NCBI GenBank assembly: GCA_947561395.2
Contig: OX387194.1
Location: 32,622,036-32,686,035 of the forward strand
Direction: 5' to 3'
Length of the DNA: 64,000 nt
Source: Buxus sempervirens
Taxonomy: Eukaryota; Streptophyta; Magnoliopsida; Buxales; Buxaceae
In this document: in pieces, positions 1,599 through 49,380 of the stretch
How positions within the stretch are numbered: position 1 is the first letter of the stretch
Layout: the number at the start of each line of letters is the position of its first letter
Translations under genes and position numbers: made by a program
Notes under the pieces: model-generated
What the model saw: the letters and a program-made list of their open reading frames with translations, nothing else
Told to the model about the DNA's origin: nothing
Database searches by the model: none

Positions 1599-1603
1599 CA
1601 AGA

Positions 1604-4624: not shown

Positions 4625-4657
4625 AAGGGAACTGAATATAATATATTGTTAGAATCG

Positions 4658-9907: not shown

Positions 9908-10024
9908 TGTAAACACCCCAAATTGCACTACAAAATGAGAAAATAATGAAAACATATAATTGGGATTTAAAACAAGGCAAAAATGCATGAAAATCAATAA
10001 TTCAAGCCTTGACCGTAGTGTATC

Positions 10025-10129
10025 TACGGGCTAAGCGCGCCCGAATTTTATATACGGGCACGCAGCGCCCGTAATACATATACGGACACCTTTGGACCGT
10101 AAATCATTTACGGGCACATCAGACTCGTG
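10025..10129. promoter_or_regulatory. Palindrome array, 5' LTR of W (4 units, 28-bp period)
   Basis: Units start at 10025, 10053, 10081 and 10109. Each is a 7-bp arm, 7-bp spacer and 7-bp arm followed by a 7-bp linker. The best unit is TACGGGC-N7-GCCCGTA (10053-10073). The array is upstream of the TATA box at 10316. Its regulatory role is inferred. Confidence 0.75.
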
Positions 10130-10315
10130 CGAGTTCTGTTCTTCTCTCGATTTCTAAGCCTTATCTTTAGTCCAATATCCCTTTAAATGAGCGAATTATA
10201 TATTTTATTCATACGGAATATCTTTGTGGATAAAGGATGGGCATGATCTTGTGTTTAACTCAAACTGAAACTCTATCTTGCCAAACCTTGGACCAACCAT
10301 ACCCCTGAGTTTGCC

Positions 10316-10323
10316 TATAAATA
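10316..10323 (+). promoter_or_regulatory. TATA box of the W 5' LTR
   Basis: TATAAATA in the context GCCTATAAATAGAGG, about 190 bp downstream of the palindrome array. The 3' LTR has the same box at 33016-33023. It is the likely core promoter for W genomic RNA. Confidence 0.75.
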
Positions 10324-11698
10324 GAGGGCCTTTCCTCAAGCAAAAGGCCACAAAATTTTGAAGTCTAAGGAGCTCCAAGAGAAGAGAGGAACCCCTGCTG
10401 CCCTGCTTCCTCAATCCAGGTAAGTCCCTTTTCCCTTTTATTTTCTGTCTTCAATTCTAGATGTAATAGGATTTTCTCCTTTTTTATAGAATAAGGCCAT
10501 CTTTTGTACTTGTATTCCTAAACTTGCCTCTAAGTACCTCAAGAGTCTCTCTAGCCGTAAAACGTGAAGAGAGGGCTAGGGGAAAAGAGAACAGGTGGAT
10601 CCCTAGAATAGAACCCCATATCTGTTTTTCTCTTTTTTCTAGAATAAAGCCTTTGATTGTGTTTGTGTACCTAAACCTATCTCTGAGTACCTCAAGAATC
10701 CTCTCTAGCCGTAAAACGTGAAGAGAGAGTTAGGGGAAAAGAGACCAGGTGGATCCGTAGGGTAAACCCCCATTTGCTCTAATCTGTGAGATGTGGCTGC
10801 TTTGAATATCTTGATCATGTTTTAATGGTTTTTATGATGAATCCATGATGTCCATGATGTTTATAGCATGAGATCCCTACTCTTTTCTAAAATTTGGATT
10901 TTTCACATCTTTGCACCTACAGCACTGTTTTCGTGATTTTTGTGATATTAGGCTAAGATCTTGGATCTATCATGATCAGTATGATAGATCTGGATCCAGA
11001 AGCCTGAAAATAACTTCTAGGGTTTCATGATATGGTTTTTAAATCGTTTTTCACTTTTGAGAGAAGACCCTACAATCTAAATTCTCCCCTTTTGATGTTC
11101 TTCATCAACGTAGGTATTTTTGGTTTTTATTTCTTAATTTAACGTGGAATTTGGGCTATATCTATGAACTGGACTGTTCAAGTTCAATTTTGAAATATTT
11201 TATAAAAATCATATTTTTCTAGATTTCTAGAATTTAACTTGAAGCCAGATTTTTGGATTTTTCATCTAAATTGATTTTATTTGATTTTATCTCAATTTTA
11301 TTTTGATCATGAAACCCTAGGAATGGTATGATCATATTTGAAAGTTCTGGATCAATCAGGCTATTCGTATGAAGAAACCATATATTTTGTCTTTTTGTGA
11401 TTTTTCATGATTTTTATAGCAAGCCTTTTTCCTTTATTTTAACATGAACAATACCTGGCAACCACCTTGTGTGGATGAATAGGGGTGCCTAACACCTTCC
11501 CCTGTTCATAACCTAATCCCCTTACCCATCTCTGGTTGTTTTTTTAAGAGGGTTATTTTTACCCTAAAATTGCCTTTTGAGCTTATTTGATATTTTGGTG
11601 TCCATTCACACCTAAATTGAATTGTGGCGACTCTTTGTTTTATTTAATCCCGTGTGATGATTAGGAAGTCATTGGACAGATTTTCCATGTCTCACAAC

Positions 11699-11717
11699 TG
11701 GCGACTCTGCTGGGGAC
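11699..11717 (+). other. Primer binding site of W
   Basis: TGGCGACTCTGCTGGGGAC begins two bases after the 5' LTR end. This form of PBS is used by Ogre/Tat elements, reported as primed by an arginine tRNA (recalled, not checked). Confidence 0.8.
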
Positions 11718-12937
11718 TTGAGGATTTGAGCCTTTTGGTGTTTTAGTTCATGTTTTTGATATTTTTGGATTTGCTTACTATTTTGTGTTCTTAAGCATGT
11801 TGGGTATGTTTTAAATCTGAATTATTGTTTAAGAATTCATGGGGGTAGAAACATGCTTAATTTTGATTTATAGGATTGTTTCTAGAAACATGCATAGGGG
11901 AGGTTCGTTTTGCTGAACCATGTTTATTTCTTGCTATATTTTTATAATAGCATGTTTTAATTTTCAGTATGATCTCCATGATGATTTTTTGGTGTATAAC
12001 ATGATCGGATGCTTGCATGATTGGCTGATTTTTATGAGCATGTTTTAGGTGCTATAGGATTGTTTTGTGTATTTGTTTACTTTAAATATGCTTTCATATT
12101 ATGCCTTGGTTTGTTTATGCGTGGCTACGAAAAGAGTGGCAAGGGTTTGGTACGTTGTGAATGCGCCCTATTTTTACAATGTACTGTGCACATTTTATTT
12201 TTTACACAGCCTACCCTTAACCTATAGGAAGTTGAACCCGAATGTGTGTAGCTTAGCGCAACGAGGTCGATACTTCGGAAAGCGAAAGTGAAAACATTCA
12301 CCTTAGAACTTTGGGCTAATGATGTGATGATAACGTGGATCTGTGATTCTGGTCATCACTAGGCTTGAGTGCTAAGTTGCCATTAAGCCAAAACCCAAAA
12401 CCCCTACGCTTGAAGGTGGAGTTACACGTTTTTGGCTAAAGTACACAATTACGTGGGGATATGGGCTTATAATTGTGGGAAGGCCGTTTGCATGGCTTGC
12501 AAGCCAAGGCATAATGCGGATGCCATATTGAAGGTAAACAAGGTAACAAGGTAACCTTAATTTTTGCATTATTTTCATGTCATAGGAGTGTCATGGTGCC
12601 CATTGGTTCGGGATAAAACTGGTCCCCAAAATATGTATGTTTCCTAAAATTGGTGTAGCCCGCCATAGGAAGAGTTTCTAACTCTGTTTAGAATCAATCC
12701 TACCCAATGTTCATACAAGAGGCAACAAAAGGGTACCAAATTCTAGAATATGGTGTCAATTCAGAGGGTACATGTGCCCTCCTAAACATGTGTTTTAGCA
12801 AAAATGCCAAGGTCCACTTTGGGACAGTTTAGAAGCTTTGCAATGGGTGAACCGTATGTTTGGATGAGCAATTAAAGTGATCAAACCATGTAAAAACTGG
12901 GAAAACATAAAAGAGTTCCGTAAAACCGCATTTGATA

Positions 12938-13042
12938 CACGGGCTGGGCTCGTCCGTATTAGTTATACAGGCTGGGTTCGCCCGTGTTTTCCATACGGTC
13001 ACGGCTTGCTCGTAATTTGAATACGGGCAGGGCTGGACCGTA
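12938..13042. promoter_or_regulatory. Palindrome array, W leader (4 units, 28-bp period)
   Basis: Units start at 12938, 12966, 12994 and 13022, exactly 28 bp apart, each arm-spacer-arm of 7-7-7. Examples are TACGGTC-N7-GCTCGTA and TACGGGC-N7-GACCGTA. It is the same motif as the W LTR array but at an internal position ahead of gag. A weak TTTAAATA lies about 70 bp downstream. Confidence 0.7.
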
Positions 13043-13181
13043 CTGTGTATACCGTTTTCGCGGAAAATTCAATTTTAATCAGTTTTTCCCACTAAATCTT
13101 GTTCCTTTAACCTTTAAATAATGATAAAGTGAAATGAGTTTGAATAAAATGCTTCAAAAAAAATGTGAGAGAAAATCCTTT

Positions 13182-13908
13182 GGGCCTCTGAAAGCCTTTG
13201 AATTTCAGACTTTTTCTCAAAAACTCCTTAGGCCTCTGAAAGCCTCTGAATTTCAGACTTTTTCTCAAAAAAATCTCCGGGCCTCTGAAAGCCTTTGAAT
13301 TTCAGACTTTTTCTCAAAAATGTCCCCGGGCCTCTGAAAGCCTTTGAATTTCAGATCTTTTTTCCTTTTGGGCCTCTGAAAGCCTTTGAATTTCAAATCT
13401 TTTTCCTCGGGCCTCTGAAAGCCTTTGAATTTCAGATCTTTTTTCCTTTTGGGCCTCTGAAAGCCTTTGAATTTCAGATCTTCTGGGCCTCTGAAAGCCT
13501 TTGAATTTCAGATCTTTCTCCTTTTGGGCCTCTGAAAGCCTTTGAATTTCAGATCTTCTGGGCCTTTGAAAGCCTTTGAATTTCAGATCTTTCTCCTTTT
13601 GGGCCTCTGAAAGCCTTCTAATTTCAGATCTTTTTCCTCGGGCCTCTGAAAGCCTTTGAATTTCAGACCTTTATCAAAAATCCTTGGGCCACTGAAAGCC
13701 TTTGAATTTCAGACCTTTTACAAAAAAATCCCTGGGCCTCTGAAAGCCTTTGAATTTCAGACATTTTCCAAAAATATCCCTGGGCCTCTGAAAGCCTTTG
13801 AATTTCAGACCTTTTCCAAAAATATCCCTGGGCCTCTGAAAGCCTTTGAATTTCAAACCTTCTCCAAAAAAAATCCCCCCGGGCCTCTGAAAGCCTTTGA
13901 ATTTCAGA
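13182..13908. repeat. Tandem repeat in the W leader, 17 copies with a palindromic core
   Basis: GGGCCTCTGAAAGCC recurs 17 times with spacings of 34 to 51 bp. The strongly conserved core is itself 21 bp and nearly palindromic: CTGAAAG, CCTTTGA, ATTTCAG. The sequence between cores varies in length and composition. The conservation pattern points to the core as the selected or homogenised part. Confidence 0.85.
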
Positions 13909-14147
13909 TCATTTTCTCTTTATTGTGGGACATGTTGGAAGCCCTAGAATATTCCAACAATTCTAAAAAAAAAAAAAAGAAGCAAATAAAAAAACAAAAT
14001 TCAAACTCGTATTCACTCAGCTTGCACAAAGGCATTCCTAGGCATGTGAATGAGATTAATTGGGCACTGATATTTTTTCCCTTATTTTTTGCCAGGTACT
14101 AATACACTTGCAATCATAGCTTCTGTAACCAGATCAAGAGCTCACCC

Positions 14148-17052
14148 ATGAATCCCATTGAGACTGAAGCTGATGCTCCTCACCCAGATATTGTCTTGCT
14201 TCAGGAACAGGTGGTAGGACTAGCCCGAATGCTAGAAAACATACTGTCAGTATAGGCTCAACAAGTGCAAGCCCAGAACCAAGCATCCACTTCCAACCCA
14301 ACACCTCCACCACAAATCAACATTCCACTTCCGGTTCAACCTATTCCTGAACCCATCTACGAACCCACCCCTGAACCTATACTGATCAGGGATGAGACAG
14401 TGGAGTCGGACAAAGCCAAGGAAAAAGAAAGGATGAGGGAAGAAGCTGAAAGGAAATTCATGCACAGACTGGAAATGATCCAAGACGAACTGAGGGAGGT
14501 TAAATGCGTGAACAACTTTGGGGGCACCAATTTTGAAGACCTGTGCCTATACCCCAACGTTAACCTGCCAGCTAAGTTCAAGTGCCCAGACCTAGATAAA
14601 TATGATGGCACTGGCTGCCCCATGAGCCATCTGAAGTTGTACTGCGGTGCCTTATGCCAGTTCAGGCGGGATGAGGGTGTTTTAATTCAGCTCTTCCGAA
14701 GGAGCTTAACTGGAACGGCTCTGAGGTGGTTTGCCACCTTAGACCATGGGAAGATCAAAAGATGGAAGGACTTAGCAGATGCCTTCCTAGCCCAGTACCG
14801 GTTTAATTCAGAAATCGTGCCAGATAGGTACGACATAATGAGAATGAGTAAGGCTAGGGATGAATCCGTGAGACAGTATGCTAAGAGATGGAGGAAGACG
14901 GCCTCTCAGGTCAAGCCACCCACGCTAGAGCAGGAAATGATTTCCACTTTCATCAGTACGCTGGGTCAACCATTCTACAGCCACCTGGTAGGTCAGACCA
15001 CCACTAATTTTGCGGCTTTTGTACAAGTGGCCAATCGAATCGAAGATGGGATAAGGTCGGGTAAAATAATTGACCACTCTGCTATGGTCAGTCAGCAAGA
15101 CCCCAACCTAAAGAAATGAAGTAGGATAAAGAAGAATGGGAACATGAAAGAAGGGGAGGTAAACATGGTACAGCCACCGTCGGGCCCTAACAAACCCATA
15201 CAAATCAACATACCTGCTCATTTTCCTACTCCATCTACCCAGGCCCCCATGAGGGTTAATGTTCCAGCAGCACCCTCAGACCAAAAGAGGGTTTTCACTA
15301 AAGAGGAAAAGGATGCCTATTTCGCAGCAAGGAGAAATAGGGTTTTCACCCCTATTCCAATGACTCCTTCTCAGTTGCTTCCCACCTTATTGCAAGCAGA
15401 GTACATTACTTTAAGAGAACCTAATCCAAATGCATCCAAGGGGAGAAATTTTAACCCCTCATCCACTTGTGATTACCACATGGGTGCACCTGGGCACCCT
15501 ACTGACAAGTGCTGGCCTTTGAAGCATGCCATTCAGGATTTACTGGACCAGAATACCCTGTCTTTTAATACAGGGGTTCCTAATCCTCCCAGAACAGACA
15601 TTGGCCAAAACCCATTGCCTCAGCATCATGGGGTAGGCCCCTCTAATGTCATAGGGGTAATTTCCTCTGATAAAATAACTTTTGACCCATCCCAGTTAAT
15701 TGCTCCTATAGGGACAACGGTCAAGGTTTATTTTGACAGAATAAATAAGGAAACAGAAATAAATATGGTTTCAAAAGGAAATGATCGTGCTACTAAGAGC
15801 ATTAGCTCTGCTTTAAACCGAGCCTCCTCCCTCATGGCCCAAGTAAACATTGCAAAGCCGCCTTTGGTTATCAATTGCAGTCCATCCATCCATTTTTCAC
15901 CCATTCAGTCAAAACCACCACTGGTCATAAATTGTTACCACCTTAATGCATCAGTCACTTCTGCAACCCCTCAACCAAAACAGGGTCCACCATTGGTTGT
16001 TGATATCCCTCTCACTCAAATTTCACCATCCAAGTCCAAACTTCCTCCCTTGGTGATAAATGTCCCTAAGCCTTCCTACTCTGAATCGGCTGTACCATGG
16101 AACTACAGTGAAGGCTATACCACTACATTCCCTGCAGCTGAGGCAGAAAGCAAGAAAGAAGTAAACCTCATGATGAGGTCGAGAAAATGTGTAGGGGTGG
16201 AAGAAAAGCAAAAGGAGATAGAAAAAGAAAAGGAAGAAGAGAAAAATAAAGGAAAGGCCAATGTAGGGGAAGATGCCCCTCAGGTAACTAACAATGAGGC
16301 TGCTGATCTCATTAAGTTAATTAAAAAGAGTAAGTTCAACATTGTCGAGCAGCTGAACAAAGTCCCTGCCCAGATCTCAATACTGGGCTTATTGTTAAAT
16401 TCTGAAAAACATAGGGACTCCTTGTTAAGGATACTTCAGGGGGCCCATGTGCCTAAAAACATTGAACCAGACCAACTAGGCCGGATGGTTGGGCAGATTT
16501 TATCCCACAATGTTATAACTTTTTCAGAGACTGAAATCAGCCCAGCAGGGTACCATCATGTTGACCCTTTGCACATAGCTGTGCTTAGTAAGGGTTGCAT
16601 GATAGCCCGGGTTTTAATTGATAATGGGTCGGCTCTAAATGTCTGCCCATTAATAACCTTTGTTAAGCTCGGTGTAGAGCAAAATAAAATCAAACAAAAT
16701 GGAAGAATCATAAGAGCATTTGACAGCTCCAAAACACAATCCCTAAGGGAGGTTGAACTGCCGGTCACAATTGGACCGTATATTTTTAACATCACATTTG
16801 AAGTAATGGATATACCCGCAGCCTTCAACTTACTCCTAGGAAGGCCGTGGATTCATACAGCTAGGGCTATACCATCTACCCTCCACCAAAGAGTCAAATA
16901 TATCAGAGGGCAAAAGGTAATTACTGTCCTAATTGAAAATTTGGTTCCTCCCATGTGGTCCCCTGATGTACCCTACATAAACATGGAAATGACTGCTAAC
17001 AAGATGGCATTTCACTCTTTCCAGTTTGAAACTGTGAATTTTATACCTGGGG
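14148..17052 (+). pseudogene. W gag-protease region (interrupted by element A)
   Basis: The frame starts at ATG 14148 (MNPIETEAD). A TAG at 14253 and a TGA at 15117 interrupt it, but it is otherwise one frame to 17052. Gag holds the retrotransposon core (KYDGTGCPMSHLKLYC; ALRWFATLDHGKIKRWKDLA). A nucleocapsid-like finger follows (CDYHMGAPGHPTDKCWPLKH), in the CxxH..H..C form seen in Tat/Ogre gags. The aspartic protease has LIDNGSALNVCP and LLLGRPWIH. A proline-rich linker with repeated PPLVI motifs lies between gag and protease. The frame breaks at PGG, where A is inserted, and continues at 20681. Both early stops can be read as C-to-T changes (CAG, CGA), so the ancestral protein was probably a single gag-pro-pol. 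Confidence 0.85.
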
Positions 17053-18045
17053 GGTGTGCGCGCCTGACTTTTGGTCGCACGGGTAGAAACGGGAATTTGG
17101 AGTCGCCACCCGCCTGATAGGGTGCAGGCGGACACCTGAGTGCCTAGATTAGTCTATTTTGGGCTTTGGTCTGCGGCTTGAGATTCTAAGTCGGGGTCTC
17201 GGTTGTGGTCTGGGGAAGTCCGTAGACACCCTAGTCCACCCCATCGGATGACGGGTCCCGTGGGTTCCCTGGTTTGAGTCAGCTTGCTTTGGTCTCTCAC
17301 CCGATCCCTAATTCGATATGCAAATTGGTTAAGTCTGTCGGGACCACTTGAGTGGTGTGGATCCCTTTAAATTGATTTTATCTTGTTTTACTTAAGTTGT
17401 CTGAGTCTGTTTGGGTGAGCCCCGTTGGAAGGCCCACGATGTCCTTGGTGGGCTTGACTAAGCCCATGCACCCTTGGTGGGCCTCTGTCTAGTCCTAGGA
17501 GGCCCTTTGGGCTTTGGTTAAGTGTGTTGGTTTTATTTTAATTGTTCAAATTTGACACTTAAGTGACTGCCAACAGGATTTTATCTTTACTTAAATTTTC
17601 CAAGGTGAGTCGGATATTGGGCTTGGGGCCCATAGTCCAAAGGTAGGGTTGAAAGCCCAAGTTCTAGAAGTATAGGGTTTGCACCCTAACTTGGTTAATT
17701 AGTGGGCTTTGGTGGGCCCGATAGGCCCTAGCCCTTGGTCTCGGCCAAACCACACAATTCAAACATGACATTCCACGAGACAAAATCCGGGTGGGCCGCA
17801 TTGGGTTTGGCCCGCCCGATTCAATTAGTTCATTTTACTTAACTTGCTTATTTGCATGCTTTTGGATTTATCGGGCTTAGTGGGCCCCGTTGAAAGGCCC
17901 ACGGGTATTCCGAGTTGGACCGGCGGTCCATGTCCCAAGTTGGGTTCCCGGGTGGCCCGGAAACCCTGTTGGTTCATTCGGTTTTGTTGAAAATGGCATG
18001 GAAATTCAACAAGGACCAAAAGGACATAAAAATTGCATTTCTGTC

Positions 18046-18113
18046 GTGTATCCGGCCTTAGTTGCCGGATACACATGGGCCACAGGTGATCCGGCCTGAG
18101 TTGCTGGATCACC
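18046..18113. promoter_or_regulatory. Distal palindrome array of LTR A (2 units, 39-bp period)
   Basis: Two 11-7-11 units: GTGTATCCGGC-N7-GCCGGATACAC (perfect) at 18046 and GGTGATCCGGC-N7-GCTGGATCACC at 18085. The outer arm bases differ between units but still pair within each unit. Confidence 0.75.
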
Positions 18114-19872
18114 CTGCGATGGGCTTTTTTGGAGTTTGGCCATTTGGGGTTGCTTCCAGGGGTTCCTGGGGGCTTTCTATAAGTCATGTGAGCCCCTAAG
18201 TGGGCCCACACAGGTTCAGGTTTGGGGGGAAGCCTCCTTTGACTTCCTTTTGGGTCTCTTAGCTAGGCAAGGGAGATAGCCAGGGTGCATGGGCCTGCTG
18301 CTTCACTTCTTTCCAGCAACCAGCAACATGGACTTGTTGTTGTCCAAGGGATCTCACGTATGCTAAAACCAGAAAACTTTAAAGGCAAGAATGACATGCT
18401 TTGACACATCAGAACATCAAACTCAAAAGGAAGGAAGAACATGCACTCATGCCCAAAAGGTAAGATAAAGAAGTTAGCATGATACAAGAACATGGCTGTA
18501 GGTTAAGGTGTTATGTTTGGAAATCAAGGTAAAGAAATATAAAGGAAAGGGAAATGGGGTTCCTTCTCATGGGGTGTTGCTTGGTGCTGGAAAACCTACT
18601 AAGGACAGCAGTAGCACCAAGGCCCCCTACTGTCCTCGGTGGTAACCTACATAGGTCAGTACAAAGGGGATGGGGGTGAGGGAAACATGCCTATTGTATC
18701 ATCAAATCAGCAAGTAAAAAAAAAGCAAACAAGGGCATATCAGGACAGTAGACAGTAAAGGGCTGGGGGAGCATACATATTAGCACAAAAACAGTAGGCA
18801 AAGCGAGGAGAAAAAAACACACACTCATGAAGGTGATGGCCTGCTGGAGGTTCAGGGACAGCAACAAACAACAAGGATTTGTTGCTGTCCCTGGCAGCAG
18901 TTGGCAAGGATCTTGGGAAGGCTTGCAAAGCAAACTTAAAGGGAGGTGAAGGGGATCATGCTCATAAGATCTTTCTCCCCTGGTTCGAACACCATAAGCC
19001 TGGTGTGCAAATCAACTTTACTAAAAAGGAAATGGGGTGCTGCTGCTGCCGCCAACAGCAACCCCAAAAAGTGCCTCACATACCTACTAGTTTAACATAA
19101 AAAGAGGGAGATCATGCTCATATTCAAAGGAGCATGCTCCATGCTCAATAAACATGTCAACACATGCAAACATATACATTTCACCATCATTAACATGCTC
19201 AAAACAGCAACTTATTAGACGGAAAAGCAAACCAACAATAAGGGTGAAGAGGGGGGATTACGTTGGGGTACATTAGATGAGATGAAAGAGGAACATGCCC
19301 CTCTAAAAATGGCACAACCTACTGCTGGAAACCCAAACCAAGCCAGCACCTTATCTTGGACTCTTGACCCACTTTTAAGAACTAAAAACTTCCTCTCCCT
19401 CACCCCAAAACCGAACGTGAGGTCCCCTTCACCATTAGAGACCTCCATGTGATGGAATGGAGAAATAACACATGCTAGGACTTCATGGGAGAAGGTCCAG
19501 ACCAAGAGAGAAAAAAAAACCAGCTGGGTGAATCTTTAAAAAAAAACCTCATTTCAATATATGTTAAAGCAAATGTATCCAGGAACCTCACCTGGGGTTG
19601 CTTGAGCCTTGGAGTAGGGGGGAGTCACCTCTTTGAAGTTGGACAACAACTGAGGCTTGCTTCTCCTTGCACCAACAGCACTTGCTCCTCTTCTTCTTGG
19701 AGTGTAAGTGAAGGAGAGAAGGAAAAGAAGGGTGGGAGCTCTTTTGATGATCTAGGGGAGTGGTGGAGGCAAATAGGGTTGAAAAGGGAAGGATTCGGAC
19801 CAACACAGGTGGGGGAAGAAGGCTCAAAAACAACCAAGGGAGCCAACCCCGGGCAAGGGGGCTGCTATTGGC

Positions 19873-19879
19873 TTTTATA
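19873..19879 (-). promoter_or_regulatory. TATA box of LTR A
   Basis: The minus strand reads CTATAAAAGC immediately downstream of the palindrome array in LTR orientation. It fixes the orientation of A. Confidence 0.65.
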
Positions 19880-19890
19880 GTGCTTTTTTT

Positions 19891-20136
19891 TGTATCCGAT
19901 GAACAGTGCCGGATACACTATGTCCTATGTGTATCCGGCCTCCAAGGCCGGATACACTAAGGGTTATTTTGTATCCGGCATTAAATGTCGGATACAAAAC
20001 ATAATTATTCGTAAAATTAATGCCGCCGCGAATCTGTCGGAGAATCGGCGCGAATCTCGTCGAGCAAATCTTTGTATCCGGCATTTGAGTCCGGATATGA
20101 AGAGGAGCAAGTGTATCCGGCATATTTGGGCGGATA
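19891..20136. promoter_or_regulatory. Promoter-proximal palindrome array of LTR A
   Basis: Five units with TATCCGG-type arms and 7-bp spacers centred near 19904, 19943, 19983, 20086 and 20125. Spacing is 39-40 bp within the groups of three and two, with a 103-bp gap between groups. The low-coordinate edge is 11 bp from the minus-strand TATA box. Confidence 0.75.
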
Positions 20137-20680
20137 AAAATCAAAAAATTACGGATTTGTCCCTCGACTTGACCGATTCGACCGATTTGACACTTTTGGA
20201 TATCTACGGATTGCCCCGTACGAATTTTTGTTTAGTCCCTGGGATATTTATCAAGTTTTGATATTTAGAGATTAACCCTTGAGATATTTTGCTGCCACGT
20301 GTGCAGTTTCCCGCTCCGCAACTCAGAAACTTCGACAGCTCATATCTCCTTCATCCGAACTCCGATTTGAGCAAACTCAATTGCGTTAGACTCGTATCGG
20401 AACCCTCTATTTAATGACATAGTGCTAAGCACTTGGCACGGGGTTTGAGGAAAAGTCAACTTTCGGCTCTCCCTCAAGTTTGACCAGCCCACCGAACAAT
20501 CATCCGGACTCCGATTCCAGCAAACTCAGTTGCGTTGGACTCGTGTCGGGATTCTCCATCCATTGAGATAAAGCAAGGTGACCAATTTTCACTTGACCAA
20601 AAAGTCAATTTTCCACCCCTTATGGTTTGACTTTATTTCTGGTTTTTCTGGGAGCGCAAAAATGAGGTACTTACATGGGG

Positions 20681-23600: not shown

Positions 23601-24975
23601 CTTTAGCAACATTGGCTTCAATGGTCAGTATGCCAGAAGGTGTTGATATTAGACCACTGGAAATTGAAGTCAGAGATGAACTAGCTTATTGCCTTGTTCT
23701 AGAAGAAACCCAGAAGAAGAAGTACCATGGTTTCAAAATATTAAGAACTTCCTAAATGATCGGAGTTTGCCAGAAAATATCACTTCTACAGAGAAAAGAA
23801 CAATACAGAGGTTAGCAGGACAGTTCTTATTAAGTGGTGGGCAGTTGTACAAAAGATCACACAATGATATACTACTTAGATGTGTTGCCAAGACCGAGTC
23901 AGAAAGGTTAGTTAAAACTGTACATGGAGGAGTGTGTGGACCCTATATGAACAGGCACATGCTTGCCAAGAAGATTCTGCGATTGGGATATTACTGGTCA
24001 ACTATGGAGCACGATTGCTATATACATGTTAAAAGGTGTCATTTATGCCAAGTGTATGCTGATAATAAAAATGCACCCCCAAGTGAATTGCACAACATGA
24101 CATCTCCATGGCCCTTCTCCATGTGGGGTATAGACGTCATTGGAATGATCTCTCCAAAGGCATCAAATGGACACAAGTTTATACTTGTAGCAATTGATTA
24201 CTTCACCAAGTGGGTAAAGGCAGCTTCATATGCAAACATTACAAGTAGCCACGTTCTGAAATTCTTGAAGCACAATATCATTTGTCGCTATGGTTTGCCA
24301 AGTGCCATAGTATCAGACAATGCTTCAAACCTTAAGAACAAGGACATGAGGAAGATGTGTGAACAGTTTCAGATCACCCACCACAAGTCAGCTCCGTACA
24401 GACTAAAGATGAATGGGGCAGTGGAAGCAACAAATAAGAACATAAAGAAGAACATTCAGAAGATGGTAGTAAGTTTCAAAGATTGGCATGAAATGCTACC
24501 ACTTGCTCTACATGCTTACAGAACCTCGATTCGGACTTTTACAGGGGCAACCCCGTATTCTTTAGTATATGGGATGGAAGCGGTTTTACCAGTAGAAGTA
24601 GAAATCTCTTCATTAAGAGTGCTAATGGAAGCTAAATTAGAAGAAGCTGAATGAATACAGTCAAGACATAATCAACTCAATTTAATAGAGGAAAAGCGTT
24701 TGAAGGCGCTTTGTCATGGCCAATTGTATCAAAAGAGAATGGCCAGGGTTTACAATAAGAAGGTAAAGCCCAGAACTTTCCAAGAAGGAAATTTAATATT
24801 GAAGAAAATTTTACCCTTTTTGGAGGACCCTCGTGGAAAATTCAAACCAAATTGGGAAGGACCTTATGTGGTCAAGAAGGTCCTGTCAGGGGGTGCTCTC
24901 ATCTTAACAGAAATGGATGGGAAGGATTTTCCTGAGCCAATTAATTTTGACGCAGTAAAGAGATATTTTCCTTGA
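20681..24975 (+). pseudogene. W pol: reverse transcriptase, two RNase H domains, integrase
   Basis: It continues the W polyprotein after A. First is a linker ending in GKGLG..LQGM (about 20760). RT follows at 21750-22700 with VPVPKKDGKVRMCVDYRDLN, MPFGLKNAGATYQR and the catalytic YVDDM. The first RNase H (22780-23160) includes YLSKKFTEYEAKYSPLEKTC. A second RNase H (23250-23640) has FFDGAA, NNTAEYEA and RAKNQFADALA; this doubled arrangement is a Tat hallmark. Integrase has an HHCC region ending CHLCQ and a DDE core with D in WGIDVIG, D in IVSDNAS and E in NGAVEATN. The C-terminal part ends FDAVKRYFP. Damage includes stops near 20729, 21167, 22737, 23246, 23354 and 24652 and frameshifts near 21375 and 22230. 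No active enzyme is expected. Confidence 0.9.
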
Positions 24976-25930
24976 ATGAATATTACTAGGAAATGATCTG
25001 AGGCCATTTTTCTATATTTCCCAAAATTTTCATCCCTAGTCAAGCCAATTTAAGCCTATTCGTCGTCTTTGATAAACCTAAATCGGACTTACAATCTTAT
25101 ACTGGGGCAAGGCCAATAGGCGCAGAAAGAAAAAAAAAAAGAGAAAAAATAGGGGCAAATGAAAGCCAAATACAAAAGAAGGGGAATGGGATTGAATTCA
25201 TCATGACTATAAGTCCGGTTGACCCATTTTCACACTTAGAAAATTTTGAGCCTTTAATACCTTTTCTTTCATAAACCGAGCTTAGCCTTTGTTTCGTCCT
25301 ATTCTTAAGCTCTCGGTGATTTTAGTATATTCATTCAACTTTCAGAGTAAGATTGGTGATGACGGAATGCAGAAGCCGGCCCTAGTGAAAACCGTAATTG
25401 GCGCTAAGGGCAATAGGGGCAAAAAGAAAAAGAAAAAAAAGAGAAATAAATAAATAAAAAAAGTAAAAAAATCAAAGGTTGAGTTGATCATGAGGTACAA
25501 GTTTGAAGTCAGCATGAGTACTGGAAACTGAGCAGATTAGCAGGGTCAGTAATTAGGGGATGATTCTAAAGGCCACGGGGTAGACAGATTTGGTCTCTCC
25601 CTATTGCTTGGATTACCCTTTTCATTATTCAACCTGATTTTAATTCCTTTGATTATATGTGATTAAGTGTTATGGATCAGTTTTCAAAAAAAAAAGAAGA
25701 GAAGAAAAAAAAAAGAGAAAAAAAAGAACCAAAAAAAAACTATACTTTGGCCAGTGATGAGAAATCAAATACTTTTTTATAAAACTTCTGTTTTTACAAG
25801 CATCTGAGAATTCTGAGGCCAATAATATAAAACCTAATTTTGAATTAAATCTATTGTCTTTCCACTAATGGAGTTGGCTTTTGTATAAAAGTATGAAAAA
25901 AGAAAAAGAAGGAAAAAATAATAAAAGAAT
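24976..25930. other. Non-coding gap between convergent pol and antisense gene 2
   Basis: Pol ends at 24975 and the minus-strand gene ends at 25931, so transcripts converge here. The stretch holds three purine-rich runs with poly-A interruptions (about 25120-25150, 25425-25470, 25685-25740), each following a GGGGCAA- or GGCCA-type phrase. No gene is visible. Confidence 0.6.
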
Positions 25931-27644
25931 CTAATCCCTACTCCCCAACTGCTCCTCAAGCTCCCTAATCCTAGTTGTCTGAGTTGCAATGATTCCAGAA
26001 GCTCCCTCTGCATTAGGATCACTCAAAAAGGAGATGATCTCATCTGAAAAAGAATACTTGATCTTCAACGCCCTAAGGGTAGCCAAGGAATCCTGATATT
26101 TCTTCCGCATCGCTCGGACTTCAAAGCAACGAACCTGCCTTTGTTCTTCAAGTTTCTTCTCCATGGCAATGCGGCAAGACCTCTGCTCTTCAAGTTGCCT
26201 CTCCAGATCAATATCCTTTATCCTGAGGTCTTGTGCTTCTCGTACCCAAATTTGTTGAAGCCGCTTGTGGGTTGCTCTTTCAGACTCCAGAATGTCCACA
26301 TAAGTAGGGGAAGAACTGCAGGAGGATCCTATGGTACTGGGGCATGACTCTGCACCTGCTCTTTGATCCAGAAGTGATAGTCCTTCACATGGGACTCAGA
26401 AAAAACTGGACCCCGCAGAAAGCGAACATATGACCACTCATTCATTAATTGAGCATTTAGCCCCATGGTGGCTGATGTAAGTGGTCCTACAAGGCTCTCA
26501 TAGCCAGTTGGGATCATAATTCCCTGGGTCGCTCCAAACTGCCGAAGAACCCTCAAAGGAAGATAAAGAACAGCAGATTTCAAGCCTGCCAGGACCAGAA
26601 AGTTCCTATCTCTGAAGCTGATCATTGTCTCTGGATTAGGCTGATAAGTGCCAGGCCATCTCACTTGATCATCCTGAAGAGTATCCAAGAAAGTGAACCA
26701 TCCCTGCTTGCCGCCTTGGATATTAGGACAACCCTTGTGGCTCATCAGAACATGAACTTTCAACCTTGGAAAGAAGCAGCGAGTTATCTCTTCAACTTGA
26801 CTCAGGTGGTCAAGCAACCAAAGCTGCAAAAAAAGGGAGAATTTCAATTTATTTTGAAAGAAAAAAAAGAGAAAAAAAAAGAAAGAAAGAAAGAAGAAAA
26901 GAAAAGAAAGAAAGAAAAAAAAAAGAAAAGAAAAATTTTTCTTACCTGTAGGATAGGGTTGCAGGCAAGAAAGCGTTTCTTCTTTCTGAAATAGCAGTCA
27001 GTTAAAGCCTGCTATATCTCTGCCAAGATCATAGGAACCAATCTCTTACGTTTCCTAACTTAGCAGATAACTGAGATGAGAGCCAAGTCAACCTGGTCAT
27101 CACCCCGTGGAAAGAGCAACTGGTTAACCACTATCAGAGTCAAAGCATTAAACCTAGAATCCTTGTCTCTACTCCTTAGAAGTTTTTCAGTCAAAAAGGT
27201 TTTGGACAAGGTCAATAATGTATCAGAATTTCCTAAGTCTTTCTTCCCTATACCCAAGAATGTAGAGGCCTCCTTTTTGTAGCTAGGCTTTAGGGGAGGG
27301 TTCACAACTTTTTCAGAAAATCTTAGGCCAAGGATGGTTTCAATTTCTTCTATGGTAGGAGTCATCTCTTTGTCATCAAAGCGGAAGAGATTCAGTTCAG
27401 GAACCCAGTGTCCAATCAAAGCTTCAATGATTTCCCACTTAAAGGGAATTTTAGGGATGTGTAGGATATTCCCTAAGTGGATAGAATCCCAGCAAATTTC
27501 CTCATCAAGGGTCATGGAGTTAACCCACCTATCATAGAAGGAACCCACAATATTGTACCTGGTGAGATTAGGAGGTTTTGATCTAACAGGTTGTCTTGCA
27601 GGAGGAGATTCATCGATAGAAGCGAAAGGGGCGAGGGAAGCCAT
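25931..27644 (-). pseudogene. W antisense gene 2: DUF7745/PMD-like protein with coiled-coil tail
   Basis: Exon 1 is 27644-26946 and exon 2 is 26823-25931, with a GTAAG donor and a T-rich GCAG acceptor (122-bp intron). The N-terminal part (FKWEIIEALIGHWVPELNLF; MTPTIEEIETILGLRF; LLFPRGDDQVDLALISVI) and the later RNFLVLAGLKSAVLYLPLRV resemble the plant DUF7745 family, related to plant-mobile-domain proteins. Residues of the 26299-25931 segment (EDIDLERQLEEQ-like heptads) form a coiled coil. Breaks are a TAA at 27060, a TAG about 20 codons later, and a one-base shift near 26330. Upstream lie a TATA box (27736-27743) and a four-unit palindrome array (27780-27884), so the gene has its own promoter. 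Cellular function is unknown. Family naming is from memory. Confidence 0.7.
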
Positions 27645-27735
27645 GGAAGCACCAAAGAAGCCAAGGAAAGCAGAAAACGGAAGGCTCAGGGAGTTTTTAA
27701 ACTATTAAAAGTGTCATAATGATGTCCCCCATGAG

Positions 27736-27743
27736 TTTATATA
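27736..27743 (-). promoter_or_regulatory. TATA box of W antisense gene 2
   Basis: The minus strand reads CTATATAAAC, 92 bp upstream of the ATG at 27644 and 36 bp downstream of the palindrome array. Confidence 0.6.
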
Positions 27744-27779
27744 GAAAATTTGAAAGGGCAGTAAAATCCGTAATTATAA

Positions 27780-27884
27780 TACGAGCATGGCATGCCCGTA
27801 TAAAGAATACGGACACACTGTGACTGTGAAAAATCCACGGGCATAGTGCGCCCGTATTAACATTACGGGCACGGCTTGCTCGTA
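27780..27884. promoter_or_regulatory. Palindrome array upstream of W antisense gene 2
   Basis: Four 7-7-7 units start at 27780, 27808, 27836 and 27864, a strict 28-bp period. Arms include TACGAGC/GCCCGTA, CACGGGC/GCCCGTA and TACGGGC/GCTCGTA. It is the same motif and layout as the W LTR array. Confidence 0.75.
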
Positions 27885-28103
27885 ACTTAATTACGTTCCT
27901 TTCGGAAAATGCCAAAAAGTGGGAAATTTTGATTTCAATGGTTTCCTAAGCTTCACCTATCCCTGCTTTAACAGATATCATGCAAGAAAAGCTAGAAATA
28001 AAAGAAAAAAGAGCACAAATGAATAAAAATGAATCAAATTTCTTATATATATATGAATGGATACATCAGTTTGTCAAAATACATGTATATAAATAATCCT
28101 AAT

Positions 28104-30931
28104 CTACTGTCTACGCAGGTCCACCCCTACGGCCACGGGACCACGTCCTCTGCCTCGACCACGGCCTGAAGATCTCCGGGGCTCAAAAACATATCACACT
28201 ATGTTACGGGCTGTACTACGGGTCATCCTGCTCAAAACAGACTGAATATCATGCCACATATATAAAGGCACAAGACCAGTAGTGGGATGATCAGGAGGAA
28301 CGTACCCCGAAGTATCCACATATCCCGTAGACTCGATATCAGAATCCGTATAAACAGACATAGAATCATCAGAAGCAGTCTCTACCTCAGGCTCCACAGG
28401 TTCAACCGAAGCCTCCTTCATCACCACAGCCTCCTCGGTAGGCTCCACCACAGCGGCATCCCTAGCTAGCTCCATATCCATATCTGTAGACGCATCAGGA
28501 GCGGTCTCAGGTGCTGGAGCAGACTCTGGCACATCCACCACAGCAGGAGCAACCTCAGTCTCTACCTCAGGCTCTGCTGCAGGTGCCTCTACCGATCTGG
28601 GAGAAGTCACGAACTCCACCGGTGCCACAGAAAATACCTCACCACGAAGATGCATAGGCACAGGTGGAGCAGATGAAGAAGGGCCGGCTGTGTCATCCTA
28701 AAAATAAGAAAGGAAATTTTAATCAGAACAGGATAAACAGAGATAAAAGCAGAAATGGAAAGAGGTGAAAGAATTAACCTGAGTATGAGATGGACCTGCC
28801 TGGTCCTTTGTACTAGAAGGTCCACCTGGCCCTATGCCCTGGCAAGCTGTCCCCAGAGATCAGAAATGGTACTGTAGAGGGCATCCCGCTTGGCGATAGC
28901 AGCATCTCGCTGGCGCTCTATATCAGCATACCGAGATCGGATTTTTGCCAACTGAGCCTCCTGAAATAGAAAAGAAGGTGTTAGAAAATGCCAAGTTCAA
29001 ATAAAGTATATGAATTGAAGATCAAAAAAGGAGAAGACATACCGTAGTGTCATATGCCCTAATCACTACCCCTCCAATCTCTGTGACTCCGCCACAGACA
29101 GGCATAGGTGGCATGAGGCACCCAACTGAAGATCGCCTGAACCAGGCATCATAGTCACCCTCCTCTAATAATGTCTCTGCCTCAGTCCAATCTACGAACT
29201 GGGCAGGATCAACAGGCATGGGAGGAAAAGAGGGGGTAGTATCTGGAGGGATGGCAGGAATCCGGGGCTCTCCAACATGTTGATAGAAGAAGCGCTCGCC
29301 GCAATACCAAATGCTCCCCAACTGACCAATGAAGAACTGATATCTCTGATGTCTCTAGTCAGGGGCAAAAGCATCATCTCTGGCCGCATGCAGGGCCAGC
29401 ACCTCATGAATGTCCTCCATCCTGGGGACGAACAGCTGAAAAAGCAGAAGGGATATTAGACAAGTGATCCAGAAGAAAAGAAAAAAAGAAGAGAAAAAGA
29501 AGAGGAATTAAAGCAGCTTACCTCAGATCGATACAGCCTGTCCAGGTGGACCCGGGCAGACCTAGGACGACTCTTTTCAGAGTCGTGCTCCACATGACAC
29601 CACCTACGAGCCATGGGATATGTCTCCTCTGGCATCGTAGAGGTAGGGCGGAAATAGGGGATATACACCCTAGCAAAGAACTGCAAAAAGAAGAAAAAGG
29701 GTCAAAAAAGAATAGAAAAGACAGAAAGAGAAGGAAAGAGAAAGAAAGAGCGGAGAAATAATTGTTTCACCTGCAGGAAGGGCCAGAGGAATCTACACCC
29801 AACCCCAGCTCCTCGAGAAGTAGAGAGGCCGCTCACTGATCAGCGCAGGCCGGCCAAAATAGTACCAAAAATGAGCGGGCCCCATGCATACCTCCTCGCT
29901 TGCTGCAAGTCTCCCAATAAACTCAAAAAGTGAGGACTAACTGAAGTCGTGTCCTCTGGGAAGAAGCAGGAGCCCATCATGTACAGAAAAAGGAATCGGA
30001 AGGCAAACGGAAAAACTGGGTCACCGGCGGCAAGCTGGCCAAACTGCCTCCCCCTGAAAGTCTCTCTCAACCAAGTCAGAGACAATATCGCTCTCCCTCT
30101 ATCCCATGCCTCAGGAGGCAGCACGATATAGCCAAGGTAAGCGGCGATTTCATCAGCATCTGGCATCACCATCTCAGGAATAACATCACCAATCATCCGA
30201 ATCCCGGTGATAAGCGTGAAGTCAGACGGCCTGATCCCAATCTCGATATTCGGAAAATGGAAGCTCAATGTCTCGGGGAAGAACCTCTCAAGCAGCGCCG
30301 CAATAAGGGCTCGATCCAGGCGCACATCCGGAATGGTGATGAATAGGCCAAAGCCATACAAGCCTAGCTCCCGATGGTAGGCTGAACTGCAAGCTCCAAT
30401 GAATCTGATAAAGCTAGCCCAGCTCCCACGATAATGAGACATGGGATAATCCAGAGGGATATCTGCTCTAATACACGCTGAGGAATGAGTCCTCAAGCCA
30501 TGCAAAAGATCAGTATCCCTGATCTGGACAACAACCGCCTCAGGGACCTCAACTCTGGTCTTGGCCTCATCTCTGCCACGGCCTCATCTGCGGCCTCCCC
30601 TACGGCCCTCATCATGGTCTCCATCTCTGCCTCCACCTCGGTGCCTGCTACGGTTCCTGTCTCTGCCCGAAGTCTCAACTGTCGGCTAAAGAAGCAATTG
30701 GAAAGAAGATAGGGTCAGGGTGAATTTTGTGAAGGAATGTGAAATTTCAGAAATGTTAGAATATACCTCCGGGGTCGCCTCTCGCGAATCCCCAGAAGGG
30801 AGATCTGGGACATCCGAATCAGAATCCTTCTCGGCCCTCGAAGAAGAGGCCACATCAGCATGATCCCTCCTAACCCTCGAAGAGGAAGGCTCATCTGCAG
30901 GATCCCTGGAAGCTGATCGAAGGCGGGCCAT
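28104..30931 (-). pseudogene. W antisense gene 1: plant mobile domain (PMD) protein, six exons
   Basis: Exons run 30931-30767, 30685-29771, 29680-29522, 29435-29043, 28960-28779 and 28697-28104, all with GT..AG borders and short introns (81-90 bp). The first exon is Ser/Arg/Asp-rich (MARLRSASRDPADEPSSSR). Exon 2 carries the PMD core (FGLFITIPDVRLDRALIAAL; SFHFPNIEIGIRPSDFTLIT; FLYMMGSCFFPEDT; RRYAWGPLIFG). Exon 5 looks coiled-coil. Exon 6 is acidic and ends in an RG-rich tail (GRGRGRGRGP). In-frame stops occur at 30584 (TGA), 29840 (TGA), 29355 (TAG) and 28194 (TGA), and a shift lies within exon 5. All four stops fit C-to-T changes. PMD proteins are plant-specific; host members (MAIN/MAIL1) act in silencing and genome stability. 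A role here is inference. Confidence 0.75.
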
Positions 30932-32167
30932 CTACGGTTCAAATCAGGGAGATGTTTAATTATTCTTGTTAAAATTTTTATTGCTTAATTTTCATTTTAA
31001 CCAAGTTTAATTGATTTTTCAGGGAAAAGAAAATGGAGAATGGAAGAAAGGGCTTCAGAAACTCCTGATCAAATCAAGAATCAACTGAAGGAGTTTATTT
31101 TTCTAGGAATATTTTATTTGTATATGCTTTAAAAATTATATAGAGAAACTATATAAGAAGTACATGCTTCTTATAGGATTTCTTTATATGAAAAAAAATG
31201 TGTTGGTGTTTTAATTTCCTAAAGATGTCTGACCAGGGATTTTACTTGGTTTCAAGATAGTCAAGGCATGAAGTTGGGAACAAGAGTCCAAGGATCAGTT
31301 CAGGGATCAGTCCATACCAGGCTATATAAGTGCAACTCAAGCTAAGGTTTTCAAAGCAAAAATCAGGCATTAGTTTACATGTGCCACAATCAGAACACTA
31401 AAATGAAAGCATAAATAGATGCAAGCAAAATGAGGATGAGCCAATGGCAACTGTAAATTGCTCCTTGATGATCAATGTCAAAAAGAAATCTAAAGCATAC
31501 AGCAAATAAAGCAGAAATTCAGTCTCAATCAGAAAAATTGCAAGCATCAGTTCAGTCAACAAGGAGCAAACTCAGAAATTTAGGAATTCGCTCAAAAGCC
31601 AAATCTGTTAGCCCAAGAGCAGAAAATCATTTGATCAAATATAAAAGTTGAGGATTTACTCATGAAGATCATACAAGCATTCAAGGTATCCATACAACAA
31701 TTTTCGGATGTAACATTGGCACAAAAATCAAATGATGAACCATGAAACAAATCAGAATCAAGGACAGAGAGTTAAAACAGGAGATTGAACAACTCATGGA
31801 CGAACTATACTTGTTTATCTGAATTGTGAAAGAAAAATGTGAGCTTGGTCTCACCCAAGAAAGAAGTTTGCTCACCCACAGAAGCCGTCCACGGTCAATG
31901 ACTGTTTCGAGTGGTCGCCCAAGGAATCAAGACGTCGCCGGAGATGTCGAATGGTTGCTTGCTAACAGTGGTCGCCGGAATAGAAAAGATGAAGTCGCCG
32001 GAGAACAATGATCGCCGGAGAACAGTGGTCGTCAGAGATTAGAAGGAGAAGAAGAAGGGGAAACCGTAAGAGAAGATACGGGCACAAGAAGTTAGGGCAG
32101 AAATGCGAGCAGAAGAGAATAAAGTCGCGGCCGCGGTTAAGAAGGAGGTCAAAATCCATAAAAACAG

Positions 32168-32257
32168 TACGGGCTACAGGCACCCGTGAAGGTAATACGG
32201 TCTACTTCGCCCGTATTCAAATTACGGGTAGCATCTGTCTGTAATGTAAATACGGGC
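32168..32257. promoter_or_regulatory. Palindrome array upstream of W antisense gene 1
   Basis: Units start at 32168, 32196, 32223 and 32251 (periods 28, 27, 28). Arms are TACGGGC/ACCCGTG, TACGGTC/GCCCGTA (6-bp spacer) and TACGGGT/GTCTGTA, plus a left arm only. It is more decayed than the other four W arrays and lies about 1.2 kb upstream of the gene 1 ATG. Confidence 0.65.
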
Positions 32258-32593
32258 GAACCAGAAAATTGCATATTTTATTATTTTCTCCACACTTTTC
32301 AGGAGATTAATGTTTATATTAGTTGTAAGTTGCAAGGATTGACACCTTACCCACTTTTGTTTAAAATTTTTGTCTCAAATCTCACTTCATAACCACGAGT
32401 GCTCAGTGAGAGGAGAGAAGAGGATTTGGCCCTTAAGCTGAGGGACTTTTAGCAAATCTTCCACAATCAATTCTTTTTTTCCCAAAATCATCCATTTAAT
32501 CCTTGCAAAATGCAATTAGTTAGACAAAGATCTCAAAAAGTGCAATTAGTGGGTCTTTTTGCTTTCTGCTTGTAATTGGTTCCAATTACCAGT

Positions 32594-32606
32594 AAAGAGG
32601 GGGCAG
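32594..32606 (+). other. Polypurine tract of W
   Basis: AAAGAGGGGGCAG lies one base before the 3' LTR start (TGTAGACACCC, 32608). This is the expected plus-strand priming site. Confidence 0.75.
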
Positions 32607-32607
32607 T

Positions 32608-34306
32608 TGTAGACACCCAAAATTGCACTACAAAATGAGAAAATAATGAAAATATATAATTGGGATTTAAAACAAGGCAAAAATGCATGAAAATCAATAA
32701 TTCAAGCCTTGACCGTAGTGTATCTACAGGCTAAGCGCACCCGAATTTTATATACGGGCACGCAGCGCCCGTAATACATATACGGGCACCTTTGGACCGT
32801 AAAACATTTACAGGCACATCAGACTCGTGCGAGTTCTGTTCTTCTCTCGATTTCTAAGCCTTATCTTTAGTCCAATATCCCTTTAAATGAGCGAATTATA
32901 TATTTTATTCGTGCGAAATATCTTTGTGGATAAAGGATGGGCATGATCTTGTGTTTAACTCAAACTGAAACTCTATCTTGCCAAACCTTGAACCAACCAT
33001 ACCCCTAGGTTTGCCTATAAATAGAGAGCCTTTCCTCAAGCAAAATGTCACGAAATTTTGAAGCCTAAGGAGCTCCAAAAGAAGAGAGGAACCCCTGCTA
33101 CCCTGCTTGCTCAATCTAGGTAAGTCCCTTTTCCCTTTTATTTTCTGTCTTCAATTCTAGATGTAATAGGATTTTCTCCTTTTTTATGGAATAAGGCCAT
33201 CTTTTGTACTTTTATTCCTAAACTTGCTTCTAAGTACCTCAAGAGTCTATCTAGCCGTAAAACGTGAAGAAAGAGCTAGGGGAAAAGAGAACAAGTGAAT
33301 TCCTAGAATAGAACCCCATATCTGTTTTTCTCTTTTTTCTAGAATAAAGCCTTTGATTGTGTTTGTGTACCCAAACCTATCTCTGAGTACCTCAAGAATC
33401 CTCTCTAGCCGTAAAACGTGAAGAGAGAGCTAGGGGAAAATAGAACAGGTGGATCCGTAGGGTAGACCCCCATGTGCTCTAATCTGTGAGATGTGGCTGC
33501 TTTGAATATTTTGATCATATTTTAATGGTTTTTATGATGAATCTGAATGAATCCATGATGTTCATGATGTTTATAGCATGAGATCCTCACTTTTTTCTAA
33601 ATTTTGGATTTTTCACATCTTTGCACCTATAGCACTGTTTTCGTGATTTTTGTGACATTAGGCTAAGATCTTAGATCTATCATGATCAGTATGATAGATC
33701 TAGATCCAGAAGCCTAAAAATAACTTCTACGGTTTAAATTCTCCCCTTTTGATGTTCTTCATCAACGTGGGTATTTTTGGTTTTTATTTCTTGATTTAAC
33801 GTTGAATTTGAGCTATATCTATGACCTGGACTGTTCAAGTTCAATTTTGAAATATTTTATAAAAATCATATTTTTCTAGATTTCTAGAATTTAACTTGAA
33901 ACCAGATTTTTGGATTTTTCATCTTAAATTGATTTTATCTCAATTTTATTTCTGGATCAATCAGGCTATTCGTATGAAGAAACCATATATTTTGTCTTTT
34001 TGTGATTTTTCATGATTTTTATAGCAAGCATTTTTCTTTTATTTTAACATGAACAATGCCTGGCAAACCACCTTGTGTGGATGAATAGGGGTGCCTAACA
34101 CCTTTCCCTGTTCATAACCTAATCCTCTTACCCATCTGTGATTGTTTTTTTTAGGAGGGTTATTTTTACCCTAAAATTACCTTTTTGAGCTTATTTGATA
34201 TTTTGGTGTCCATTCATACCCAAATTGAATGGTGGCTACTCTTTGTTTTATTTAATCCCGTGTGATGATTAGAAAGTCATTGAATTTGATTTTTCCATGT
34301 CTCACA
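32608..34306 (+). mobile_element. 3' LTR of element W
   Basis: It is 1699 bp, from TGTAGACACCC to TGTCTCACA, followed by the AAACC duplication. It repeats the 5' LTR with scattered substitutions and two deletions of tens of bases. The TATA box is at 33016-33023. The PBS-like motif near its end is mutated (TGGCTACTC). Confidence 0.9.
32725..32829. promoter_or_regulatory. Palindrome array, 3' LTR of W
   Basis: Units start at 32725, 32753, 32781 and 32809, matching the 5' LTR array. Two arms have changed to TACAGGC (G-to-A). The unit at 32753 is still a perfect TACGGGC-N7-GCCCGTA. Confidence 0.75.
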
Positions 34307-49358: not shown

Positions 49359-49366
49359 TATTTATA
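49359..49366 (-). promoter_or_regulatory. TATA box of LTR D
   Basis: The minus strand reads CCTATAAATAGG, 14 bp from the proximal palindrome array. Confidence 0.65.
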
Positions 49367-49380
49367 GGCAAAAATTCCGT

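Follow-up and report, generated by a model that had tools for sequence, protein, structure and literature searches.

Arabidopsis VANDALs are DNA transposons, and so is maize En/Spm, which encodes TnpA, a protein that targets the element's own promoter through arrays of a short motif with a CpG. Promoter-near repeats that answer to an element's own protein are also known from viruses, in the Tax-responsive 21-bp repeats of human T-cell leukemia virus type 1 (HTLV-1) and the palindrome arrays of papillomavirus E2 and Epstein-Barr virus EBNA1, and the HTLV-1 long terminal repeat (LTR) is accompanied by an antisense gene, HBZ. Here we describe arrays of short inverted motifs in element W, a retrotransposon in a 64,000-nucleotide stretch of the Buxus sempervirens genome (hereafter the window; contig OX387194.1, positions 32,622,036 to 32,686,035, numbered from its first nucleotide). 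The names of the further elements (U, V, W2, X, Y, Z and T) are labels of this analysis. The arrays of W stand in its LTRs, in its leader and upstream of two antisense genes with PMD-family domains. The key result, which goes beyond the claim of an initial annotation of the window, is that the half-site making up these arrays switches between elements W, U and V.

In logic, the VANC system of VANDAL transposons is the nearest. There, repeated target motifs have changed along with the related VANC proteins, and an element-encoded protein is paired with short family-specific motifs that form tandem repeats in non-coding regions (PMC5735166). In Buxus, family-specific short motifs are also clustered in non-coding parts of the elements. 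However, the arrays of W do not belong to that system, since transposon class and protein differ: they are carried by LTR retrotransposons with PMD genes and form a strictly phased lattice of inverted half-sites beside TATA boxes. En/Spm, for its part, is a DNA transposon with terminal arrays and no PMD. The viral proteins are unrelated to PMD, and in W the same array is also found at antisense genes.

Among LTR retrotransposons, Retand and Grande carry proposed regulators as antisense genes in the interval from pol to the 3' LTR, and tandem repeats are common, but the gene there is TRP28 rather than PMD, and in the accessible text the word stem "palindrom" occurs only in a cited title (PMC11963269). 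PMD has been found in 57% of Ogre elements, which are likewise very large Ty3/gypsy elements with PMD extra genes; the same word stem is absent from the accessible text of that paper (PMC6317226). Our literature search covered titles and abstract openings, with subscription journals mostly outside its reach, and none of those returned reports operator arrays of palindromes in elements that bear PMD or are of the Ogre type.

Half-site lattices at the promoters of element W

Element W is a Ty3/gypsy element bounded by a 5' LTR (9908-11696, plus strand) and a 3' LTR (32608-34306, plus strand) that are 89% identical, with the target site duplication (TSD) AAACC at 9903-9907 and again directly after the 3' LTR. 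Its gag, reverse transcriptase (RT; RVT_1) and integrase (rve) score above their Pfam cut-offs and are of gypsy type, and a protease motif was recognized by eye only; together with the LTR pair and the TSD, these features are those of Ogre/Tat Ty3/gypsy elements. The sequence TGGCGACTCTGCTGGGGA follows the 5' LTR and may be a tRNA-Arg-type primer binding site. Ogre primer binding sites are of the tRNA-Arg type (PMC9289625). A nested element interrupts pol, and the region from pol to the 3' LTR holds two antisense genes: gene A (25934-27644, minus strand), with two exons assigned by eye and in-frame stops in the window copy, and gene B (28197-30931, minus strand; extent by eye).

Five arrays, each of four palindromic units, had been proposed in the initial annotation, and all of them are located exactly as claimed, at 10025-10129, 12938-13042, 27780-27884, 32168-32257 and 32725-32829. 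These sites fall in both LTRs, in the pre-gag leader and upstream of each of the two antisense genes, and the 28-bp period, the single 27-bp step and the 6-bp spacer at 32168-32257 were reproduced. The spacing of the supposed separate 7-7-7 palindromes is also right; the true repeat, however, is a 14-bp lattice of alternating TACGGGC and GCCCGTA half-sites, because neighboring units are separated by 7 bp, just as the two arms within a unit are. The spans first given are present but too short, since the lattices extend beyond them, for example with GACCGTA at 10011-10017. The U3 lattice thus covers 10011-10129 (plus strand), its copy in the 3' LTR 32711-32829 (plus strand) and the gene A promoter lattice 27753-27898 (minus strand), while the leader lattice (12938-13042) and the lattice upstream of gene B (32168-32257) are both on the minus strand. 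In the latter, the last unit does keep only its left arm (32251-32257), which is the promoter-distal half-site of the lattice. With the duplicated LTR array counted once, the five sites represent four independent ones. Arm symmetry is imperfect, with 3-7 of 7 bases matching in the 19 complete units and 1 of 7 in the lone-arm unit.

Runs of five or more half-sites in alternating orientation (at most 2 mismatches, steps of ~14 bp) were found five times in the window, always at the claimed arrays, and in none of 20 dinucleotide-preserving shuffles (for site counts, 60 shuffles were used). In 66 pooled sequences, many of them related copies, the commonest distance between neighboring TACGGGC half-sites is 14 bp, whether they are convergent (123) or divergent (150). 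The U3 lattice lies ~187 bp ahead of the LTR TATA box (CTATAAATAG, near 10316), and the gene A lattice is followed by a TATA box, CTATATAAAC, at 27736-27743 on the minus strand, at a distance of 23 bp in most copies measured. By eye, degenerate half-units flanking the leader lattice resemble, in minus orientation, those at the promoters of genes A and B.

Since the units are inverted repeats and the leader copy lies inside the expected transcript, they could in principle act as structural RNA or DNA hairpins or as small-RNA precursors instead of protein sites. We consider this very improbable. The stems are merely 7 bp, most arrays lie upstream of TATA boxes, with sense and antisense transcription units alike, and the spacing between units is as fixed as that within units, which hairpins do not need.

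Conservation in other copies of W

The source assembly of the window (676.5 Mb) contains 30,421 matches to the TACGGGC palindrome, compared with 1,845 for a reversed control pattern (at most 2 mismatches). A search with the gene A protein gave 5,361 first-look candidates, and all 150 that were scored are at least 90% identical. Gene A promoters were read in 23 copies, namely 19 usable slices of 20 fetched, loci L020, L068 and L069, and the window itself; the sample was drawn near the top of the match list with six rows containing stops omitted, and it therefore represents mostly young copies. The initial annotation had asked whether other copies keep the arrays, and the lattice is indeed present in 23 of 23 of these promoters, one of them shortened. 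For the other sites fewer copies were read, and these too retain the arrays, at LTR and leader in L015 and at LTR and gene B in L021. Position is conserved as well: the last half-site lies 21-24 bp from the gene A TATA in 17 of 19 measured slices and 37 bp from it in the other two, and in LTR lattices of W-type loci the TATA follows 187-211 bp further on.

Flanks unrelated between the sites of W had been another claim, and it holds in most comparisons. The observed similarity was reached by at least 28 of 200 shuffles in 10 of 12 comparisons; in contrast, that between the proximal flanks of the LTR and gene B arrays exceeded all 200 shuffles, and that between their distal flanks was reached by 5 of 200. 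This comparison rejects the arrays as parts of larger duplicated blocks, save for the weak LTR/gene B flank similarity. As a separate observation, identical palindromes occur at C1:8895665, 8956692 and 9017743, ~61 kb apart, a spacing that suggests segmental tandem duplication.

A coherent change of half-site in elements U and V

Element U (L048-L050) has the layout of W and an RT that is 94.6% identical to that of a W copy and 90.5% identical to that of the window copy. At both LTRs, the leader (L048, 4227-4331), gene A and gene B, its arrays consist of TATCCGG half-sites with a 39-bp period, spaced 16 bp when convergent and 23 bp when divergent. Two further U copies have TATCCGG at gene A (L062, L066) and, in their right ends (L063, L067), at the LTR and the expected place of the gene B promoter. 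Genome-wide, this class has 27,912 matches against 4 for its reversed control (at most 1 mismatch).

Element V (L019), identified through a PMD-A relative with 62-66% identity, has AACCGCA/TGCGGTT half-sites in 7-7-7-7 geometry at its gene A promoter, with 14 bp between both convergent and divergent neighbors (small counts, 15 and 6). The presence of AACCGCA in the V LTR was predicted from the gene A promoter, and the motif was then found at two places ahead of the LTR TATA. This class yields 13,121 matches against 66 for the reversed control (at most 1 mismatch). All three consensus half-sites (TACGGGC, TATCCGG and AACCGCA) contain a CpG.

When four half-sites were counted at each site, an element's own half-site was the most frequent in 13 of 13 sites (5 in W, 5 in U, and the LTR, gene A and gene B of V, the last of these with two half-sites). 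A motif-blind search, which seeks regularly spaced alternating 7-mers and skips self-complementary words, recovered chains of 4-8 in all six W, U and V gene A promoters tested, compared with at most 3 in 10 shuffles of each; the words returned include ATATCCG, GTATCCG, TGCCCGT and AACCGCA. Thus, the sites read within one regulatory set agree in motif class, and the class differs among W, U and V. This agreement strongly favors the proposal of an operator set linking all transcription units of an element, which as a whole is supported in part.

Outside pol, W and U are less alike, with identities of 70.6% in gag, 78.8% in PMD-A and 52.1% in PMD-B. W and U are the closest pair in PMD-A (other pairs, 66.3 and 65.3%), whereas in PMD-B it is W and V that are closest (62.1%), and U is 52.1 and 53.2% identical to the others. 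Because pol is shared while gag, PMD-A and above all PMD-B differ, the simplest history would be a single past exchange of pol between two older lineages.

The antisense PMD genes as candidate readers

Gene A matches DUF7745 with 51.6 bits (cut-off 26) and PMD with 25.4 bits, below the cut-off of 34.9, while gene B matches PMD with 61 bits (cut-off 34.9; PF10536 and PF24924 tested); the antisense proteins of U also score above the PMD-family cut-off. A Pfam scan of the antisense frames of W at E <= 0.1 returned PMD/DUF7745 alone and no VANC-type protein, with no direct comparison to VANC made. Both genes contain regions that by eye look like coiled coils, and gene B has an acidic Pro-rich region. 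Its C-terminus (28197-28697) is acidic, with 33 D/E and 7 K/R in 167 aa (40 and 2 in 185 aa in L021), which would suit a transcription factor with an activation domain. A GRGRGRGRG tail at 28110-28196, beyond the stop codon in the window copy of gene B, would suit a basic nucleic acid-binding tail; a similar RRRRGGRGRGRG stretch occurs in U. PDB sequence searches gave no match apart from a single one at chance level (E = 0.27), and single-sequence AlphaFold2 prediction of PMD-B produced no usable model (pLDDT 36.8). Relatives were found neither in viral contigs nor in a large protein set, and a search of viral contigs with an array pattern returned nothing. Host PMD proteins function in silencing and expression (PMC7156037).

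We suggest, at about even confidence, that the arrays are family-specific operator arrays, of an upstream activating kind, that join the LTR and the PMD genes of an element, with PMD as the most likely putative reader. Because the lattice consists of regular inverted half-sites, a dimeric protein that binds cooperatively along it is proposed. As the same lattice is found at the sense LTR promoter, the leader and two antisense PMD promoters, one DNA-reading factor would set the expression of genomic RNA and PMD together, and we infer activation rather than repression. That factor would most likely be the element's own PMD protein, gene B being the better candidate, which would create a feedback loop. 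Given the CpG in every consensus half-site, the bound protein may also respond to DNA methylation or relieve it. A different half-site per family at all sites read would insulate the circuits from one another. More tentatively, and with a probability clearly below even, PMD proteins may be reprogrammable sequence-specific dimeric transcription factors that occupy lattices at every promoter of their own element, with the operator sets traveling along and a second lineage plugging into the same three codes.

The same half-sites in a second lineage

Four further LTRs in the window, X1, X2, Y1 and Y2, are solo or partial long LTRs with arrays 10-17 bp ahead of TATA and a second array further down the LTR. 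X1, nested in the pol of W, has a TGTATCCGG-N9-CCGGATACA array at 19885-20146 (minus strand), 11 bp ahead of TATA, with a further unit at 18047-18095. The X2 solo LTR has a TGTATCCGG array at 51140-51390 (plus strand), 10 bp ahead of TATA, and a second array near 52540. In the Y2 solo LTR, a CCGCA-N7-TGCGG array with a 28-bp period at 49382-49562 (minus strand) lies 16 bp ahead of TATA, and a second array is at ~48094-48157; in the Y1 LTR, CCGCA-N7-TGCGG units at 39724-39820 (minus strand) lie 17 bp ahead of TATA, and a second array is near 38426-38466. The half-site and geometry of X are those of U, and by our reading of the positions the Y units appear to be the core of the V half-site at V spacing. 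The narrow Y form has 271 genome-wide matches and none for its reversed control. W2 (L011-L014) has the W half-site and a single detected PMD gene, which lies in sense orientation between LTR and gag and is 35-40% identical to PMD-A of W, U and V alike.

Each of the three half-site classes is therefore found in both lineage I (W, U, V) and lineage II (W2, X, Y), and the motif is not private to one retrotransposon. This sharing may mean either dependence of lineage II on lineage I in trans or host readers, and it is the main reason why our confidence in the operator interpretation is only moderate. As a sub-case of that interpretation, lineage II elements might be trans-parasites that kept or copied lineage I operators and use lineage I PMD. 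Short forms speak for this: with the queries used, PMD was not detected in the short X element (L046/47), L005 or L015/16, and the arrays are kept there, close to TATA in L005 (15 bp) and L046 (~10 bp). We regard parasitism in this direction as possible but rather unlikely.

Host transcription factors are a serious rival, although we rate them as a little less likely still. Three host specificities would have been recruited repeatedly, one per element at all of its promoters, and PMD would be at most a coactivator, as HTLV Tax works through host CREB. Against this explanation, half-site and geometry differ among elements of one genome with nearly the same RT, and we know of no long phased lattices as host sites.

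Evidence weighing against PMD-read operators

Several observations weigh against operator arrays read by PMD, and some of them favor host factors. Lineages I and II share the three classes and their geometry, and the PMD of lineage II is distant in W2 and, in the short forms searched with the queries used, undetected. Similarity of PMD-A does not predict the motif, because W2 carries a TACGGGC lattice with a PMD that is equally distant from all three lineage I proteins. Direct DNA recognition by PMD is given only as a hypothesis in PMC7156037, which again leaves room for host readers. Across the three elements compared, a small number, the similarity of PMD-B tracks lattice geometry and that of PMD-A does not.

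Regulation of every transcription unit is also incompletely matched by the sites themselves. The orientation of the leader array of W hints at a possible antisense gene, but no TATA, no open reading frame (ORF) of at least 90 aa and no transcription unit was found there; at the gene B array, no canonical TATA stands beside the lattice. In V, the gene A lattice consists of two blocks of four that are slightly out of phase, and the gene B promoter shows AACCGCA weakly, with just 2 half-sites.

Lattices are, moreover, not a general feature of PMD genes at the loci read. In the motif-blind lattice test, none of 12 upstream regions of PMD genes outside W, U and V (ten found by Pfam search and two of the tandem-PMD family L051; promoters behind 5' introns may be missed) exceeds a chain of 3, with shuffles reaching up to 4. 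That test was run because a cruder one, with 3 shuffles each, had ranked irregular words above true W promoters: 4 of 10 other PMD loci (L054, L057, L060, L061) scored 8 where their shuffles gave 4-6, mostly because of irregularly spaced words that are self-complementary, whereas L068 and L069, which are genuine W promoters, reached no more than 6 and 4. At L051, two PMD reading frames stand in tandem (4074-5840, 589 aa; 7394-9163, 590 aa), and many of the PMD matches listed have frames of 575-590 aa, several of them paired ~3.4 kb apart. These pairs look like a separate PMD-bearing element without lattices.

Constraint on the half-sites is weak among recent copies. The two W LTR arrays differ at 5 positions over 119 bp, 4 of them in arms, as expected for decay after insertion, and among 16 young copies the divergence of arms (0.073) is only slightly below that of spacers (0.110; permutation p = 0.077). 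This signal was too weak, and arm constraint within one family was dropped as evidence. Such weak constraint would suit passive, functionless repeats spread by slippage or gene conversion, as would two irregular gene A promoters: the lattice of L069 is ~56 bp shorter, by eye two full periods, so that copy number shifts in 28-bp steps, and the upstream part of the L031 promoter is of gene B type, joined inside the array, which looks like recombination through the lattice. Nevertheless, each site has its own spacers and flanks, the gene A TATA lies at a constant distance, and the motif class agrees across the sites of an element; passive repeats are thus an improbable explanation, if less so than hairpins.

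Other features of the window

The leader of W contains, past its lattice, tandem repeats of ~41-48 bp (GGGCCTCTGAAAGCCTTTGAATTTCAGA; 13172-13918), and the U leader contains several repeats of short stretches from their right end (13923-13988). In a further LTR, Z, a 147-bp tandem repeat occupies the 5' part and irregular GCTCGCGCGA repeats are also present (42397-43202 and 44577-44715); its palindromes show less regularity than those in X and Y. A PPR-gene region is present in three related copies, at 53636-57171, 58711-62234 and 1600-4660, with identities of up to 92%. Y2 (47269-50276) and X2 (50563-53631) are inserted in one such copy, with empty sites at ~58434 and 58711 and the TSDs CCTAT and CATGG.

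Implications

PMD genes are widespread in plant retrotransposons and among host silencing genes, and the three element-matched half-sites offer a ready binding test. If PMD is the reader, the arrays would explain by what means giant LTR elements keep their expression coordinated and insulated, and how families compete with or parasitize one another. Several retrotransposon regulatory networks, insulated from each other and with their own hosts and parasites, would then run in parallel in the Buxus genome, and the PMD domain, including that of the host genes MAIN and MAIL1, would gain a molecular function.

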